DNA from: Victivallis vadensis
Lineage (GTDB): Bacteria > Verrucomicrobiota > Lentisphaeria > Victivallales > Victivallaceae
Reading direction: 5' to 3'
Assembly (NCBI RefSeq): GCF_003096415.1
Contig: NZ_QEKH01000005.1
Span: forward strand, 1 to 64,000
Length of the DNA stretch: 64,000 nt
The stretch's first letter is position 1. Every line of letters starts with the position of its first letter. This document shows, piece after piece, positions 34,020 to 41,000 of the stretch. The position numbers and the translations under genes were made by a program. The notes under the pieces were generated by a model. The model was not told where the DNA came from, searched no databases, and was given only the letters and a program-made list of their open reading frames with translations.

Positions 34020-34600
34020 TACGGGGGAATGCCTCCGGCGGCCCGGGGCTTTGCCCCCGGCCCCCAGCGGGGACGCTTCGCCCCCCGCCCCCCCAGACCG
34101 GCAACGTGCCGGTGCGGGCGCAGGGTGTTTTTCGGCAATGCCGAAAAACACCCTGCTTGACTTTGGGGTAAGGACTTAAACGGTAATAGAGCCAATAAGG
34201 CCAGGAAGCCGGGGACCCGCCGGACAGCGTCCGCTTTGCGCATCTTCCCGCTTTTTTGCGGAAAGATGCCCGCTTCCTCGCCGTCGCAAGGCCGGGGGCT
34301 CCTCGCCCCCGCCTTGACCACCCCTCGGCAGGGGGGCAACCCTGCACCCTCGCTCCTCACGTCGCTCGATAACGCAAAGCGGCGGCAAGGTCCGATACCG
34401 GGTGCGGCGGCAAGGTGCCGCTGCCGGGTGCGCACGCCAATGCCCCTCCGGGGGGGGCGTGCGGGCAACCAGTACAGGCAAGCGAAGGTTGGTCAGCAAA
34501 GCCATTTACGCGTGCGGCAAGGTCCGATACCGGGTGCGGCGGCAAGGTGCCGCTGCCGGGTGCGCACGCCAATGTCCCTGCACGCGCAAGGTATCGGGGC
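34020..34600. repeat. Repeat island R4, part 1: palindromic modules and a 61-bp direct repeat
   Basis: It contains CCGGCAACGTGCCGG (34098-34112), a perfect 17-bp stem with AAT loop (34120-34156), and CATCTTCCCGC-TTTTTT-GCGGAAAGATG (34240-34269). A 61-bp direct repeat lies at 34382-34442 and 34514-34574, 132 bases apart, each copy holding GCGGCAAGGTGCCGC. The hairpin with the T6 loop matches the hairpin of the element inside the prepilin genes. No coding sequence is supported. Confidence 0.8.
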
Positions 34601-35053
34601 GGTCTGTATAACCACTTACGCAGCGCACAAATAAGGCCGCAATACCGCTTACGCGGCGCACAACAAGCGCGGGTTCGCGCCGCGAACGAATGTGAGGGAA
34701 TTACTTGCCTCCGGCAAGTAACGAGGAACGGTAGTGACGAAGCCGAACGTAGTGAGCGAAGCCCCCCCTGGCGTAGCCCGCAACGCGGGCGTTGAAGGGG
34801 TTGGCCGCCGCAGGCGGACAAGTAAGCGGCGAAGCCGCGCCCGCGAGCGGAAGTGCTCCGCAACCGGACCGGCCTCCGCCACCGGCGAGGGGGTCCGGGG
34901 GACGTGCGCGACGTCCCCCGGAGCCATCCGCAGGCCGGAGGCCCGGTGCTCACTACCCTCCGGGCAGCTTGCCTGTTCTTGTGCTTAAGAAAAGCAATAC
35001 CTCCGGGCAGCTCCGCCTGTTCTTGATGCAATGACAAGCCAACCATAAAACTC
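34600..35053. repeat. Repeat island R4, part 2: stacked hairpins
   Basis: A non-coding stretch with many short stems. CTTACGC(A/G)GCGCACAA is repeated at 34615-34630 and 34648-34663. TTACTTGCC-TCC-GGCAAGTAA lies at 34701-34721. CCGGGGGACGT/ACGTCCCCCGG lies at 34895-34921. The phrase CCTCCGGGCAGC..GCCTGTTCTTG occurs twice (about 34956-34980 and 35000-35024). Short frames through it are low-complexity and lack ribosome-binding sites. The following 35054-35291 shows nothing I recognise. Confidence 0.6.
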
Positions 35054-35291: not shown

Positions 35292-35319
35292 TTGAAAAAA
35301 ATGGATTTTGTAGTAAAAT
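35292..35319 (+). promoter_or_regulatory. mraZ promoter (TTGAAA-16-TAAAAT)
   Basis: TTGAAA at 35292-35297 and TAAAAT at 35314-35319, spacer 16 bases. It lies just upstream of the TAGG boxes and would drive the mraZ-rsmH-ftsL-ftsI genes. Confidence 0.65.
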
Positions 35320-35352
35320 AGGTATAGATAGGGATGAATAGGAAGAATTAGG
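35319..35352 (+). promoter_or_regulatory. Likely MraZ operator: four TAGG boxes at 10-bp spacing
   Basis: TAGG occurs at 35319, 35329, 35339 and 35349, exactly 10 bases apart. The first touches the -10 box, the third overlaps the ribosome-binding site AGGAAG and the last reaches the mraZ start. Known MraZ operators are short G-rich direct repeats (TGGGN in E. coli) spaced by one helical turn, so autoregulation is likely. Confidence 0.65.
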
Positions 35353-35870: not shown

Positions 35871-36815
35871 ATGGAAGCGGCATTTGAACACATACCGGTA
35901 CTCCGGCGGGAGGTGCTTAAGTATCTGACTTTTCCGTCGGACCGGCCGGCCCGGCTGATCGACGGGACCGTCGGCGGCGGGGGGCACAGTGCGCTGCTGC
36001 TCCGGCGGTATCCGCAATTGGAGCTGCTCGGCATCGACCGCGACGAAAACGCGCTGGCGAAGGCGGCCGAAACGCTGGCTTTCGCCGGAAACCGGGTGAC
36101 GCTGGTGCGCGGCGATTATTCCAGTTTGGCCGGACGGGCCGCGGAACACGGCTGGGAGGAAGTGGATGGAATCCTGCTGGATATCGGCGTATCATCGCCG
36201 CAGCTCGACCATGCCGGACGCGGTTTTTCGTGGCGCGCCGAAGGTCCGCTGGATATGCGCATGGACCAGCGCAGCGAGTTGACCGCCAGCCGGTTCCTGA
36301 ACCGCGCAAGCGAACAGGAGCTGGAGCGGGTGCTGCGCGAATACGGCGAAGTGGACAAATCGCGCCGCGTCGCCGCCGCGATCGTGAAAAAACGCGAAAC
36401 GCATCCGTTCGCGACCACGGCCGATCTGGTCGGGCTGTGCGACGAGGTGCTGGGCAAGTCGAAGCCGGGCAAGCTGCCGGCCCCGACGCTGGTGTTTCAG
36501 GCGCTCCGGATCGCAGTCAACGATGAACTCGGCGAACTGGAGCGGGCGCTTCCGGCAGCGGAAAAGCTGCTGAAAAAGGGCGGCCGGATCGTGGTGATCA
36601 GCTTCCATTCGCTGGAAGACCGGATTGTGAAGAACTATTTCCGGGACGCGGCGGCCAGCTGCATTTGTCCGCCCGGGCTGCCGGTCTGCGTCTGCGGCAA
36701 GCAGTCGACGCTGAAGGTGTTGACCAACAAGGTGGTCACGGCCCGGGAAGATGAATTGGCGGAAAACCGCCGTTCGGCTCCGGCCCGGCTTCGGGCGGCC
36801 GAAAAACTGGTTTGA
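35871..36815 (+). CDS. rsmH: 16S rRNA (cytosine-N4) methyltransferase RsmH
   Basis: A 314-residue enzyme methylating C1402 of 16S rRNA in the P site. It has HIPVLRREVLKYL at the start, motif I LIDGTVGGGGHSALLL (about 25-40), LLDIGVSSPQLDHAGRGFS (about 104-122), DMRMDQ, and the C-terminal VISFHSLEDRIVKNYFR (about 243-259) before the usual ending ENRRSAPARLRAAEK. Normal length and normal place after mraZ. Confidence 0.95.
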   Translation: MEAAFEHIPVLRREVLKYLTFPSDRPARLIDGTVGGGGHSALLLRRYPQLELLGIDRDENALAKAAETLAFAGNRVTLVRGDYSSLAGRAAEHGWEEVDGILLDIGVSSPQLDHAGRGFSWRAEGPLDMRMDQRSELTASRFLNRASEQELERVLREYGEVDKSRRVAAAIVKKRETHPFATTADLVGLCDEVLGKSKPGKLPAPTLVFQALRIAVNDELGELERALPAAEKLLKKGGRIVVISFHSLEDRIVKNYFRDAAASCICPPGLPVCVCGKQSTLKVLTNKVVTAREDELAENRRSAPARLRAAEKLV

Positions 36816-36863: not shown

Positions 36864-37292
36864 ATGAACATCCAATCCGCCAATCAGAGGAGCACACGGA
36901 CGAAAGTGCGTACGCCGCAGCATTCGCCGGTCAGCGGCAAGCTGGCCATGGTAGGGAAATTCCTGTTCGCCGCCGCCGCCGTCGCGGCGCTGTTGAACGT
37001 CTACATCTATCTCAACCAGAAGATCGCCGAAACCCAGCGGCAGATCCGCAAAACCGAACGCGTGCTCCATGAAACCGAGCGCGAGATCGCCCAGCTCCGC
37101 ATTCAGCGCGAGCAGCTGATGGCGTGGCCGCACATCAAGAACATGATCGCGCGTTTCGATCTCAAACTGCACGGTCCGAATCCGGGACAGGTCGCGACCA
37201 TGTCGATCCTGACCCCTGACCAGGCCGCCCGCATTCCGCTGGAATCGGTCGCCGCGGTCCGCACCCCGGGCAGCGGAGTGATCCGCAACTGA
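36864..37292 (+). CDS. ftsL: FtsL-like division protein
   Basis: A 142-residue bitopic protein. A basic cytoplasmic tail of about 30 residues is followed by one membrane segment (FLFAAAAVAALLNVYIYLNQ, about 33-52) and a coiled coil of heptads (QRQIRKTERVLHETEREIAQ, about 57-76). The architecture, and its place between rsmH and ftsI, identify it as FtsL of the division complex. Sequence similarity alone is weak, as is normal for FtsL. A ribosome-binding site, GAACGAGGGGGAAC, lies just upstream. Confidence 0.72.
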   Translation: MNIQSANQRSTRTKVRTPQHSPVSGKLAMVGKFLFAAAAVAALLNVYIYLNQKIAETQRQIRKTERVLHETEREIAQLRIQREQLMAWPHIKNMIARFDLKLHGPNPGQVATMSILTPDQAARIPLESVAAVRTPGSGVIRN

Positions 37293-37317: not shown

Positions 37318-39174
37318 ATGCTCAGTACCAACGACAAAATACGAAGACGGATCAGGATTCTGGCGGCAGTGATCCTGATCCCGATCATGCTCGGATTGAT
37401 TGCACGCTTTTATTATGTCCAGGTCATCGATCATGAATTCTACCTGCAGGAAGCGCGCAAACGCTACACCACCACCCGGGTCACCACCGGCAAACGCGGC
37501 GAAATCTTCGACGTTCACGGCAATCTGCTGGTCAGCAACAGTCCCTGCGTCAGCATCACCTGCGATCCGTTCAACCTGACCGGCGACGCGCAGCGCCGCA
37601 AGCTGGCGTTCATCCTGGCGAAACATCTGGACGACACCTACGACTCCTTTTACCGCAAGCTCAACCCGGTCCGGCAGCGCCGCGGCCGCGACGGCAAGCT
37701 GCTCTACCGGCCGGACGGCTCCCCCGACCTCGTCCCGAACCGGTACGCGATGATCGACCGCAACACCTCGCTGCAGGCCGCCGCTAAAATCAAGGAGCAG
37801 ACCAAGCTCAATAAAATTTACGCCCTCGTCTACAAAGACTCCTATATGCGAACCTATCCCAAAGGGTCTTTGCTCTCCAACGTTCTCGGTTACACCAACG
37901 TGGTCGACGACGTCGACGTGCCCCAGATCGGACTCGAAAGACAGATGAACGCCCAGATGAATCCGGAAGAGGGGCGCGAACGCTATGAGCGCACCCGCGA
38001 CGGCGCTCCCCTCAGCTACGGCATCCATGAATTCGAGCAGAGCCGCGACGGCAAGAACATCTACCTGACCATCAGCGAACCGATTCAGGCGATTCTCGAA
38101 GAGGAGCTGGACGCCTCCTATGAGAAGTGGCAGCCCGCCACCCTGTATGCCGCCATCGCCGATCCCAGAACCGGCAATATCCTCGCGATCGCCCAGCGGC
38201 CCACTTTCAACCCGAACATCCGCTCCACCTTCACCGCCGAAGCGGCCCGCACCCGGATCGCCGAAGACAGCATGGAGCCGGGTTCGATCATCAAGCCCTT
38301 CACCATCGGCAAAGCCCTCGACTGGGGCTTCGTGACCCCCCAGACCGAAATCGACTGCAACCACGGCGTCTGGATCTACCTCAATAAACCGCTGCGCGAT
38401 TCCCATCCCTACGACAAGCTGACCGTCGAAGGCGTGATCCAGAAATCCAGCAACATCGGCACCGCCAAGGTCGCGATGATGCTCGGCGAACAACGGGTCT
38501 ATCAGGCACTGAAAACCTTCCGGTTCGGCGACAAGACCGGCCTCCCCTTCCCGATCGAGGAATCCGGCCTCGTGCTGCCGGTCAAGAAATGGGACGGCCT
38601 CTCGATCACCCGCTTCCCGATCGGCTACGGCGTGCGCGTGACTCCGCTGCAGATGATCCGTGCCTACTGTGCGCTCGCCAACAACGGCAAAATGCCGCAG
38701 CTTCGGCTGATCGACCGGCTCGAAGACCCCGTCACCGGCGAAGTGACCCGCATCCCCTCGCCGCCGCCGGTGCAGATGTTCGATCGCCCGGAAACCTGCG
38801 CGACGCTGATCAGCATGATGATCAAAGTAACCCAGAAGGGCGGCACCGCCGTGAAAGCCGCCATCCCCGGCTACGAAGTCGCCGGCAAAACCGGAACCAG
38901 CCGCAAATACATCCCGACCAGACGCGATTCCAACGGCCGCATCATCGAACGCGGCCATTATGCCTCCGGCAAGTACTTTTCCAGCTTCGTCGGTTTCGTC
39001 CCGGCCCGCAATCCCGCCCTCGTGATGCTGGTCACGATGGACGAACCCAAAGGTTCCTACTATGCCGCGACCGTCGCCGCGCCGACCTTCAAAGCGACCA
39101 TGACCCGCGTGCTCCGGCACCTGAACATCCAGCCCGATCCCGCCCTGCTGGAAAACAACCGCACCACACCGTAA
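37318..39174 (+). CDS. ftsI: Penicillin-binding protein FtsI (class B transpeptidase)
   Basis: A 618-residue division transpeptidase. An N-terminal membrane segment (ILAAVILIPIMLGLIARFYY, about 12-31) is followed by the pedestal domain starting RVTTGKRGEIFDVHGNLLVS. The penicillin-binding motifs follow: SIIK in MEPGSIIKPFTIG (about 321-333), SSN in QKSSNIGTAKV (about 377-387), and KTG in VAGKTGTSRK (about 521-530). It makes septal peptidoglycan. The downstream ftsW, murD-G and mraY genes usual in dcw clusters are absent here. Confidence 0.94.
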   Translation: MLSTNDKIRRRIRILAAVILIPIMLGLIARFYYVQVIDHEFYLQEARKRYTTTRVTTGKRGEIFDVHGNLLVSNSPCVSITCDPFNLTGDAQRRKLAFILAKHLDDTYDSFYRKLNPVRQRRGRDGKLLYRPDGSPDLVPNRYAMIDRNTSLQAAAKIKEQTKLNKIYALVYKDSYMRTYPKGSLLSNVLGYTNVVDDVDVPQIGLERQMNAQMNPEEGRERYERTRDGAPLSYGIHEFEQSRDGKNIYLTISEPIQAILEEELDASYEKWQPATLYAAIADPRTGNILAIAQRPTFNPNIRSTFTAEAARTRIAEDSMEPGSIIKPFTIGKALDWGFVTPQTEIDCNHGVWIYLNKPLRDSHPYDKLTVEGVIQKSSNIGTAKVAMMLGEQRVYQALKTFRFGDKTGLPFPIEESGLVLPVKKWDGLSITRFPIGYGVRVTPLQMIRAYCALANNGKMPQLRLIDRLEDPVTGEVTRIPSPPPVQMFDRPETCATLISMMIKVTQKGGTAVKAAIPGYEVAGKTGTSRKYIPTRRDSNGRIIERGHYASGKYFSSFVGFVPARNPALVMLVTMDEPKGSYYAATVAAPTFKATMTRVLRHLNIQPDPALLENNRTTP

Positions 39175-39386: not shown

Positions 39387-39464
39387 GAAAAGGCGGCATG
39401 GCGTCCGTGCGGAACGTGCCTGCCGGACAACCGGAAAACTGCATCACAGATAAAGAGTTTGACT

Positions 39465-41000
39465 ATGACACATCTGCATTTTATCGGAATCGGCGGAATC
39501 GGCATGAGCGGGCTGGCCGCGATGTGCGCGGATTCCGGGTACACCGTGACCGGCAGCGACCGCGGCGCGGAGCGCCCCAAAAACCGCCGTATCATCGACG
39601 CGCTCGAACTTCAGGGCATCCGCATCTATCCGCAGGACGGCTCCTATATCCGGGACGGCCGCCCCGATCTCCTGGTCTATTCCACCGCGATCGAAGAAGG
39701 CAACGCCGACTTCGTCGCGGGCGCCGGAATCGACCGCATCCACCGTTCGCAGTTGCTTGAGCGCGTGATACGCGAATCCGGTTTCGAGTGTTCCATCGCC
39801 GTCACCGGCAGCTGCGGCAAAAGCACCGTGACCGCCTATCTGGCCGAGGCGCTGACCAATCTCGGGGCCGATCCCTCCTGCCTCGACGGCGCGCTGATCA
39901 AGCGCTTCACCGGCGGCAGGTACGCGGGCAATTACCGTCACGGAGCCGGAAAGTACTTCGTATTCGAAGCGGATGAGAGCGACAAGAGCCTTGTGAACTA
40001 CTCCCCCGACTACGCGATTATCCTGAACCTCGGCTGCGACCACTACGAAAAAGACGAGCTGGTCCGGGTGTTCGGGGAGTTTCTGGCAAAAGTGAAAAAA
40101 GGCGCGGTATTGGAACGCGAGGTCTATGAACTGGTCCGGCCCCGCCTGAAGCCCGGCTTTCCGGTACGGGTCATCGACGCCTCTCCCCGGCCGGATTCGC
40201 AGTTCGCAATCGAGGAGTACCGCATCCTGACCCGCACCGACGCGATCTACAGCCAGGGAGGGCGGCGCGAACGGCTCGCCCCCTCCGGCGACCGGGCGGT
40301 CACCGACACCATCGGCGCGACCAATCTGCTGTCGATCTACGGAATGCGTTCCGAAGGGTTCCGGCTGGAGAGCCGCCTCCCGGTGGCCCGTTTCACCGGC
40401 GGCCGCAAACTGGAGTTGCCGCAGCCCGGCTTTCACATGGCGATGAATGCACTCGCGATCGACGCGCTGCTGGAGTGGATTGGCTTTGATCCCGCCGAAA
40501 CGATTGAGGCGCTGGAACGGTTCGACGGCGTCTGGCGGCGCAACGATTACGCCGGGCTTACCGCTTCCGGGGCGACGGTCTACGACGACTACGCGCACAA
40601 TCCGGAAAAAATCGTCTCCTGCTTCCGCGCGATGCGCGAGATGGGCGACGGCAATATCTACGCGGTGTTCCAGCCGCACGGCTACGCCCCCTTCGGCTTC
40701 ATGCGCGACCAGCTCTATCTCGAAATCGAGCCGGAACTGCGCAATAACGACCGCTTCATCCTGCTGCCGCCGTATTATGCGGGCGGCACCTCCAGCTTCA
40801 GGCCGAAGCCGGAGGAGGTGCTGGCCGACTGGCAGAGCCGCTGCCGCCGCCCGGAGCGTTTCATGTACTTCCCGAACCGGGAACTGCTGACCGATTTCCT
40901 GCTGCTGCAGAGCAAGCCCGGCGACACGATCGTGATCATGGGGGCGCGCGACAATTCGCTCAGCGACTACGCCGCTTCACTGACCGGCGAAAAACCCTGA
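39465..41000 (+). CDS. MurC-like UDP-N-acetylmuramate ligase family protein
   Basis: A 511-residue Mur ligase. The start is the ATG at 39465, since the in-frame codon upstream is TTG. The N-terminal nucleotide fold begins LHFIGIGGIGMSGLAAMCAD as in MurC and Mpl. The ATP loop is TGSCGKST, unlike the usual GTHGKTT. EADESD (about 168-173) and YDDYAHNPEKI (about 369-379, usually DDYGHHP) follow. MurC adds L-Ala to UDP-MurNAc, and the position after ftsI supports this. The altered motifs leave open a paralog or another amino-acid ligase of the family. Confidence 0.78.
   Translation: MTHLHFIGIGGIGMSGLAAMCADSGYTVTGSDRGAERPKNRRIIDALELQGIRIYPQDGSYIRDGRPDLLVYSTAIEEGNADFVAGAGIDRIHRSQLLERVIRESGFECSIAVTGSCGKSTVTAYLAEALTNLGADPSCLDGALIKRFTGGRYAGNYRHGAGKYFVFEADESDKSLVNYSPDYAIILNLGCDHYEKDELVRVFGEFLAKVKKGAVLEREVYELVRPRLKPGFPVRVIDASPRPDSQFAIEEYRILTRTDAIYSQGGRRERLAPSGDRAVTDTIGATNLLSIYGMRSEGFRLESRLPVARFTGGRKLELPQPGFHMAMNALAIDALLEWIGFDPAETIEALERFDGVWRRNDYAGLTASGATVYDDYAHNPEKIVSCFRAMREMGDGNIYAVFQPHGYAPFGFMRDQLYLEIEPELRNNDRFILLPPYYAGGTSSFRPKPEEVLADWQSRCRRPERFMYFPNRELLTDFLLLQSKPGDTIVIMGARDNSLSDYAASLTGEKP

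Follow-up and report, generated by a model that had tools for sequence, protein, structure and literature searches.

An AGG-type box array ahead of the dcw mraZ gene of Victivallis vadensis as a probable lineage-specific MraZ operator

Results

The window (the whole stretch of DNA analyzed, 64,000 nucleotides from Victivallis vadensis) contains an mraZ gene, whose product we call MraZ1, and the next genes of the dcw cluster (Table 1). Four TAGG boxes in exact 10-bp steps ahead of mraZ had been described in an earlier note on this DNA and were confirmed. They adjoin a candidate promoter, picked out by eye, with a spacing of 16 bases between TTGAAA and TAAAAT, and the final T of TAAAAT is the first base of box 1. 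The AGGA of box 3, a likely Shine-Dalgarno sequence, lies ten bases 5′ of the ATG (35354); a single base separates box 4 from this codon. The three-box TAGG pattern occurred at this site only, both within the window and across the whole genome of 5,199,916 bases, and in 0 of 100 dinucleotide shuffles of the window. When T was replaced by W (WAGG, three boxes), the site in the window was again the sole match in the genome. The same pattern read backwards, used as a control, gave 22 matches; thus, periodicity in GGA-type strings is by itself not unusual. For four TAGG boxes at 10-bp spacing, the chance expectation is about 2e-8 per window strand. Further upstream, a mechanical reading frame (34236-34634) contains one 18-residue string twice, which hints at a repeat element in the intergenic DNA ahead of the dcw cluster.

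Table 1. Features of the mraZ1 locus and of loci linked to the second MraZ (MraZ2)
Feature	Position	Strand	Basis
-35-like hexamer TTGAAA (candidate)	35292..35297	+	by eye
-10-like hexamer TAAAAT (candidate)	35314..35319	+	by eye
Putative operator box 1, TAGG (core AGG 35320-35322)	35319..35322	+	shuffles and class conservation
Putative operator box 2, TAGG (core AGG 35330-35332)	35329..35332	+	shuffles and class conservation
Putative operator box 3, TAGG	35339..35342	+	shuffles and class conservation
Likely Shine-Dalgarno AGGA within box 3	35340-35343	+	predicted role
Putative operator box 4, TAGG	35349..35352	+	shuffles and class conservation
mraZ, dcw copy (MraZ1), 169 aa	35354..35863	+	PF02381, E 9.8e-11
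Codon of Gln24, candidate base-reading residue in the D-x-Q-x-R loop	35423..35425	+	predicted contact
rsmH (mraW), next dcw gene	35871..36815	+	PF01795, E 9e-105
Small protein in ftsL position	36864..37292	+	position and length; no Pfam match above cut-off
Class B penicillin-binding protein in ftsI position	37318..39174	+	PF00905 and PF03717
MurC/Mpl-like frame	39459-41000		by eye
MraZ2-headed cluster: small protein, PBP-like protein, SEDS protein	L304:9113-11162; L310:11049-13143; L293:1625-3845; L309:3314-5440
Third SEDS gene with 236-aa PBP-like neighbor	L334:1495-3284		own genome, contig C1, apart from mraZ2

MraZ1 matched PF02381 with 41.9 bits (curated cut-off, 23) and scored below the cut-offs of the NCBIfam equivalogs TIGR00242 (52 against 98.35 bits) and NF001476 (54.2 against 162). 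Its AlphaFold2 model (pLDDT, 86.8) matched both crystal structures and DNA-bound structures of MraZ; the best Foldseek matches were 1n0e, 1n0f, 9qlg, 9sz7, and 9r4j, with E values from 2.4e-10 to 3.4e-6 and identities of 14 to 18%. According to their titles, 9sz7 is MraZ with a four-box promoter and 9r4j is MraZ with a promoter, from M. genitalium. MraZ1 thus has the MraZ fold and is, by fold and synteny, a divergent member of the MraZ family and not a textbook equivalog. The model places Gln24 in a loop between the strands 16-20 and 26-28, two residues before the invariant Arg. This loop reads D-A-Q-C-R in the window and differs from the E. coli type, D-x-K-G-R.

The upstream regions of mraZ genes were collected from the family, order, and class (kinship labels of the genome collection used), from other Verrucomicrobiota, from 14 loci of named records, and from E. 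coli K-12. After identical genes were merged, the set comprised 271 genes: 115 class dcw copies (69 from the family and 46 from the order and class), 89 class second copies (46 and 43), 60 genes of other Verrucomicrobiota, 6 of CPR, and 1 of E. coli. An mraZ match was found in 75 of the 78 family genomes. The family sample comprised the matches listed there, and the order sample about 60 genes among the matches listed, with genus g47 (13 genomes) left out; the class sample covered 21 of 22 genomes among the matches listed, leaving out G296 and matches without a locus. The genes of the other Verrucomicrobiota, a group assigned by origin, were sampled from about 240 genomes with a match, among the matches listed. 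The dcw and second copies were separated by the best tblastn match and not by their boxes, a gene being counted as a second copy when it was closest to the second MraZ of the own genome, and mraW was found downstream of 115/115 first copies and 0/89 second copies. For three genes (L215, L222, and L242), the best match was among the other Verrucomicrobiota; they were classed as dcw copies because mraW adjoins them. L242, L218, and L233 are divergent, weakly placed class MraZ genes without a clear AGG or TGG array, possibly due to operator loss or because the genes are misplaced. In many of the other Verrucomicrobiota (L192-L212 and L252-L257), mraW seems to start about 200 to 570 bases after mraZ, as extrapolated from tblastn, a gap that leaves room for a small gene. 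The protein alignment contained 113 dcw copies, 88 second copies, 21 sequences of other Verrucomicrobiota, and 6 of CPR; L009 (start misplaced) and two short sequences (L106 and L218) were left out.

The window shows several direct repeats spaced about 10 bp apart before mraZ, the layout of an MraZ-type operator. At least three of four AGG at exactly 10 bp were present in 108/115 class dcw copies, so the period proposed for the window is kept in its relatives, and TGG arrays of this kind in 0/115. The second copies carried at least three of four TGG at 10 bp in 84/89 cases (AGG, 0/89), as did 40/60 genes of the other Verrucomicrobiota (AGG, 0/60). Each of the other periods from 5 to 15 was found in 0 to 3 genes. 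Dinucleotide-shuffled upstream regions reached three boxes in 0.65% (AGG, dcw copies), 0.45% (TGG, second copies), and 1.0% (TGG, others) of cases. A direct comparison of the two cores gave AGG as the winner in 112 of the 115 dcw copies, with three ties; TGG, the core of the E. coli-type TGG(G) box, won in none. TGG won in 87/89 second copies and in 58/60 genes of other Verrucomicrobiota, each with two ties and no reversals, and the CPR and E. coli genes had mostly TGG boxes. Fewer than three AGG boxes were seen in seven dcw copies (the ties L133, L231, and L242 belong to these), and fewer than three TGG boxes in five second copies and 20/60 genes of other Verrucomicrobiota. GGG arrays at 10 bp in 28/115 dcw copies and 19/60 others arose via overlap with AGGG and TGGG boxes. 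The period, the boxes, and their location ahead of mraZ are all kept across the class as sampled, and the array very probably constitutes the lineage-specific MraZ operator that the earlier note had proposed. The split between AGG and TGG supports a paralog-specific operator code.

The composition of the boxes refined the claim that the core had changed to TAGG. Among 401 dcw boxes, the base before AGG was T in 71% and A in 26%, and the base after it was G in 38%, T in 33%, and A in 26%. The core is altered, but its conserved unit is AGG, and TAGG was rejected as such a unit. The boxes of the second copies read TGGA (A in 85%) and those of the other Verrucomicrobiota GTGGG. When the boxes were aligned on GG, a pyrimidine at +5 was common to all three groups (61, 68, and 64%), which favors a T-to-A change before GG. 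The change is therefore better described as TGG to AGG than as TGGG to TAGG.

The AGG core coincided with one residue of the protein. In the N-terminal loop, the residue bracketed by the conserved D and R was Gln in 114/114 readable dcw copies and in 0/156 other genes; AGG won in 111 of the Gln genes (three ties), and TGG won in 152 of the non-Gln genes (four ties). The loop of L009 was unreadable because of its misplaced start, and this gene has AGG; the loop of L117 reads DPQCR. Column 31 of the alignment, the middle of D-x-X-x-R, held Gln in 113/113 dcw copies, Asn (79), Ser (5), Ala (3), or Asp (1) in second copies, Lys in 21/21 sequences of other Verrucomicrobiota (59 Lys and 1 Arg in the larger set of 60), and Arg in 6/6 CPR sequences. 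The aligned residue in the Mycoplasma pneumoniae MraZ structure is Lys. Gln commonly reads adenine, and the operator code may perhaps be read by Gln24 through a contact with the A.

Two midpoint-rooted trees were built to place the copies, one with 49 of the 113 dcw and 45 of the 88 second copies and one with 30 and 26. The dcw copies and the second copies each formed a clade. The dcw clade had a support of 99/99 in the first tree, where it was nested among TGG-type dcw MraZ of other Verrucomicrobiota, and of 94/99 in the second; the nesting was resolved in the first tree alone. The second copies formed a clade (100/99 and 100/100) on a long branch, and their origin is unsure with midpoint rooting. 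AGG and Gln arose once on both trees. The link between residue and box is therefore a correlation without an independent replicate and no proof of contact. The operator might also be that of MraZ1 with its preference set by residues other than Gln24, for instance by several loop residues or by the shape of the oligomer; other alignment columns separate the groups as well, which, together with the single change, makes this a substantial, though less favored, possibility. However, only in column 31 do all members of the AGG group have a residue that no TGG group contains. This position is in the loop, two residues ahead of the invariant Arg, and is aligned with the M. pneumoniae Lys.

The earlier note had further proposed that the boxes moved onto the ribosome-binding site. 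The overlap is real in this species, but it does not reflect a general shift of the operator, which was rejected: a box lies 4 to 12 bases before the start in only 53/108 dcw arrays (3/84 second copies, 1/40 others), and the array position is tied more closely to the -10 element than to the start codon. Counted from the start codon, the first box of the dcw arrays lies between -88 and -22. A promoter-like geometry was scored in 77/108 dcw arrays, and in 43 of these the -10 element ends one base before the AGG of box 1, as in the window; in 46 of the 55 second-copy arrays scored, it ends on the T of box 3. Relative to the -10 element, the two kinds of array have a nearly equal helical phase, two turns apart. 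AGG is a Shine-Dalgarno core and TGG is not, so the altered code permits a double use of the boxes in about half of the arrays. In some relatives (L134, L136, and L157), AGG boxes run across the predicted start codon (AAGGTGAATAAAGGTG-type strings).

This double use raises the question of whether the boxes are kept as ribosome-binding sequence, with repeated AGG raising or buffering translation start and MraZ binding being secondary. None of the 53 arrays with a box in the Shine-Dalgarno zone had another strict Shine-Dalgarno motif; however, this is weak evidence, since 38 of the 55 remaining arrays likewise lack one. The exact 10-bp period persists in arrays that end up to 55 bases before the start, second copies hold the same period with TGG, which offers no Shine-Dalgarno core, and the arrays follow the -10 element, all of which renders this explanation improbable.

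With a cut-off of E ≤ 1e-10, the second MraZ (MraZ2), whose gene does not adjoin mraW, was found in 46 of the 78 family genomes (22 of the 36 high-quality ones), and it also occurs among the genomes sampled from the order and class. At the same threshold, 32/78 family genomes gave no match; two of these, G068 and G074, are each 99% complete and still carry AGG boxes. Insulation from MraZ2 cannot maintain AGG in such near-complete genomes, and avoidance of MraZ2 was rejected as the sole reason why AGG is kept. An exact array of four TGG occurred at one site in the own genome, before mraZ2. Among eight chosen genomes, it was found before mraZ2 in seven, one of them with an extra GC-rich site, and one genome had no exact match. 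As the genome encodes two MraZ proteins, the AGG array might serve MraZ2 or another regulator instead of MraZ1, but MraZ2 has its own TGG array and the AGG array persists where MraZ2 was not detected, making this very improbable. Chance repeats, favored only by the general frequency of periodic GGA-type strings, are practically excluded by the conservation across 115 genes and by the shuffles.

The surroundings of mraZ2 pointed to cell wall synthesis. At 38 of the 89 second-copy loci, mraZ2 is followed by a small protein in which a hydrophobic stretch was noted by eye, and the short flanks contained a PBP-like protein at 29 loci, all outside the family, and a SEDS protein at 10. Four short PBP-like proteins, tested in longer regions, matched the PBP dimerization domain only. 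Four SEDS proteins tested matched PF01098, and three tested fell below the FtsW and RodA equivalog cut-offs. In the MraZ2-headed clusters (Table 1), the PBP-like protein has about 230 to 240 aa and a dimerization domain without a transpeptidase match, and these clusters possibly represent a third wall-synthesis module. At least three SEDS matches were present in 25/25 family genomes of at least 90% completeness with MraZ2 versus 4/14 without it, and in 42/46 versus 8/32 of all family genomes, in counts that may include gene fragments and are uncorrected for shared ancestry. In the own genome, the third SEDS gene and its PBP-like neighbor are on a different contig, and no TGG array was found around them (4 kb of L334). 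In a quick tree with weak inner support, the third SEDS proteins of the family grouped with those of the mraZ2 clusters, apart from the two main SEDS groups.

Discussion

MraZ, which regulates division genes, is widely conserved, and to our knowledge its signal and its base-reading rules are poorly known. Our comparison of upstream regions makes it highly likely that MraZ1 binds the array described here and that this array serves the dcw cluster as its autoregulatory operator. An MraZ1 oligomer would contact one side of the helix at the four AGG boxes and repress (or tune) its own promoter and the division genes downstream. Since the array spans the -10 end, the expected transcription start, and the stretch up to the start codon, the polymerase would be obstructed by MraZ1 sitting on the boxes; in V. 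vadensis itself, two of them additionally fall on the Shine-Dalgarno region, and the ribosome-binding site could be blocked as well. MraZ has been described as a repressor in E. coli and M. genitalium and as an activator in Neisseria elongata (PMC8475190, PMC9395523), so the sign of regulation assumed here is a prediction.

The change from TGG to AGG would have occurred once at the base of the class, with the Lys-to-Gln change of the loop on the same branch, while MraZ2 would have kept TGG at its own promoter. Because MraZ2 keeps TGG boxes, cross-regulation between the two proteins is probably avoided. Taken together, one class may hold two MraZ proteins with mutually exclusive one-letter codes: Lys-to-Gln (Gln24) and TGG to AGG would have rewired the dcw copy, MraZ2 would have kept TGG and would head or accompany a third wall module (a small protein, a PBP dimerization domain without a transpeptidase, and a third SEDS protein), and the AGG boxes could double as Shine-Dalgarno sequences, so that the array could gate both transcription and translation. 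We put this full picture forward tentatively, with the balance leaning slightly against all of its parts holding at once.

A pair of paralogs in one cell, with operators one base apart and a single matching residue change, offers a test of how residues read bases and of how duplicated regulators avoid cross talk. It also points to a second cell wall module tied to its own MraZ in the class, and in about half of the sampled arrays the operator shares bases with the ribosome-binding site. Among the matches listed from the open-access literature, no paper on MraZ paralogs or on a Lentisphaerota MraZ operator was found, and none on MraZ-DNA structures.

The closest systems for comparison are the arrays of MraZ2 and of the other Verrucomicrobiota. 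MraZ2 shares the 10-bp boxes, and the final base of its -10 element is also the first of a box, while the dcw AGG begins one base later; it differs in its TGG(A) core, a loop with mostly Asn, a -10 element that ends on box 3, and mraW not adjoining. The dcw operators of other Verrucomicrobiota likewise consist of 10-bp direct repeats before mraZ and belong to a dcw MraZ that is related on the tree, but they have a TGG core and Lys in the loop (59/60), and mraW often lies further downstream. The E. coli MraZ operator, with TGGG-type boxes, is said to have been described by Eraso et al. in 2014. In our hands, the same method recovered GTGGG repeats in the E. coli array, close to the start codon. 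Both operators comprise 10-bp direct repeats directly before mraZ, the first dcw gene, near the start codon; E. coli, however, combines a GTGGG core with a loop Lys instead of AGG with Gln, and its fourth repeat is degenerate (GGGG). In Mollicutes, the operator is built from direct repeats of AAAGTG[T/G] (Fisunov et al. 2016, as summarized in PMC8475190), and the M. genitalium chromosome has a single such MraZ site according to the same source. It resembles the array described here in its direct repeats before mraZ, for which a four-box DNA-bound structure has been deposited (9sz7, by its title), and differs in its GTG core and in the residue aligned with Gln24, which is Lys in the M. pneumoniae protein.
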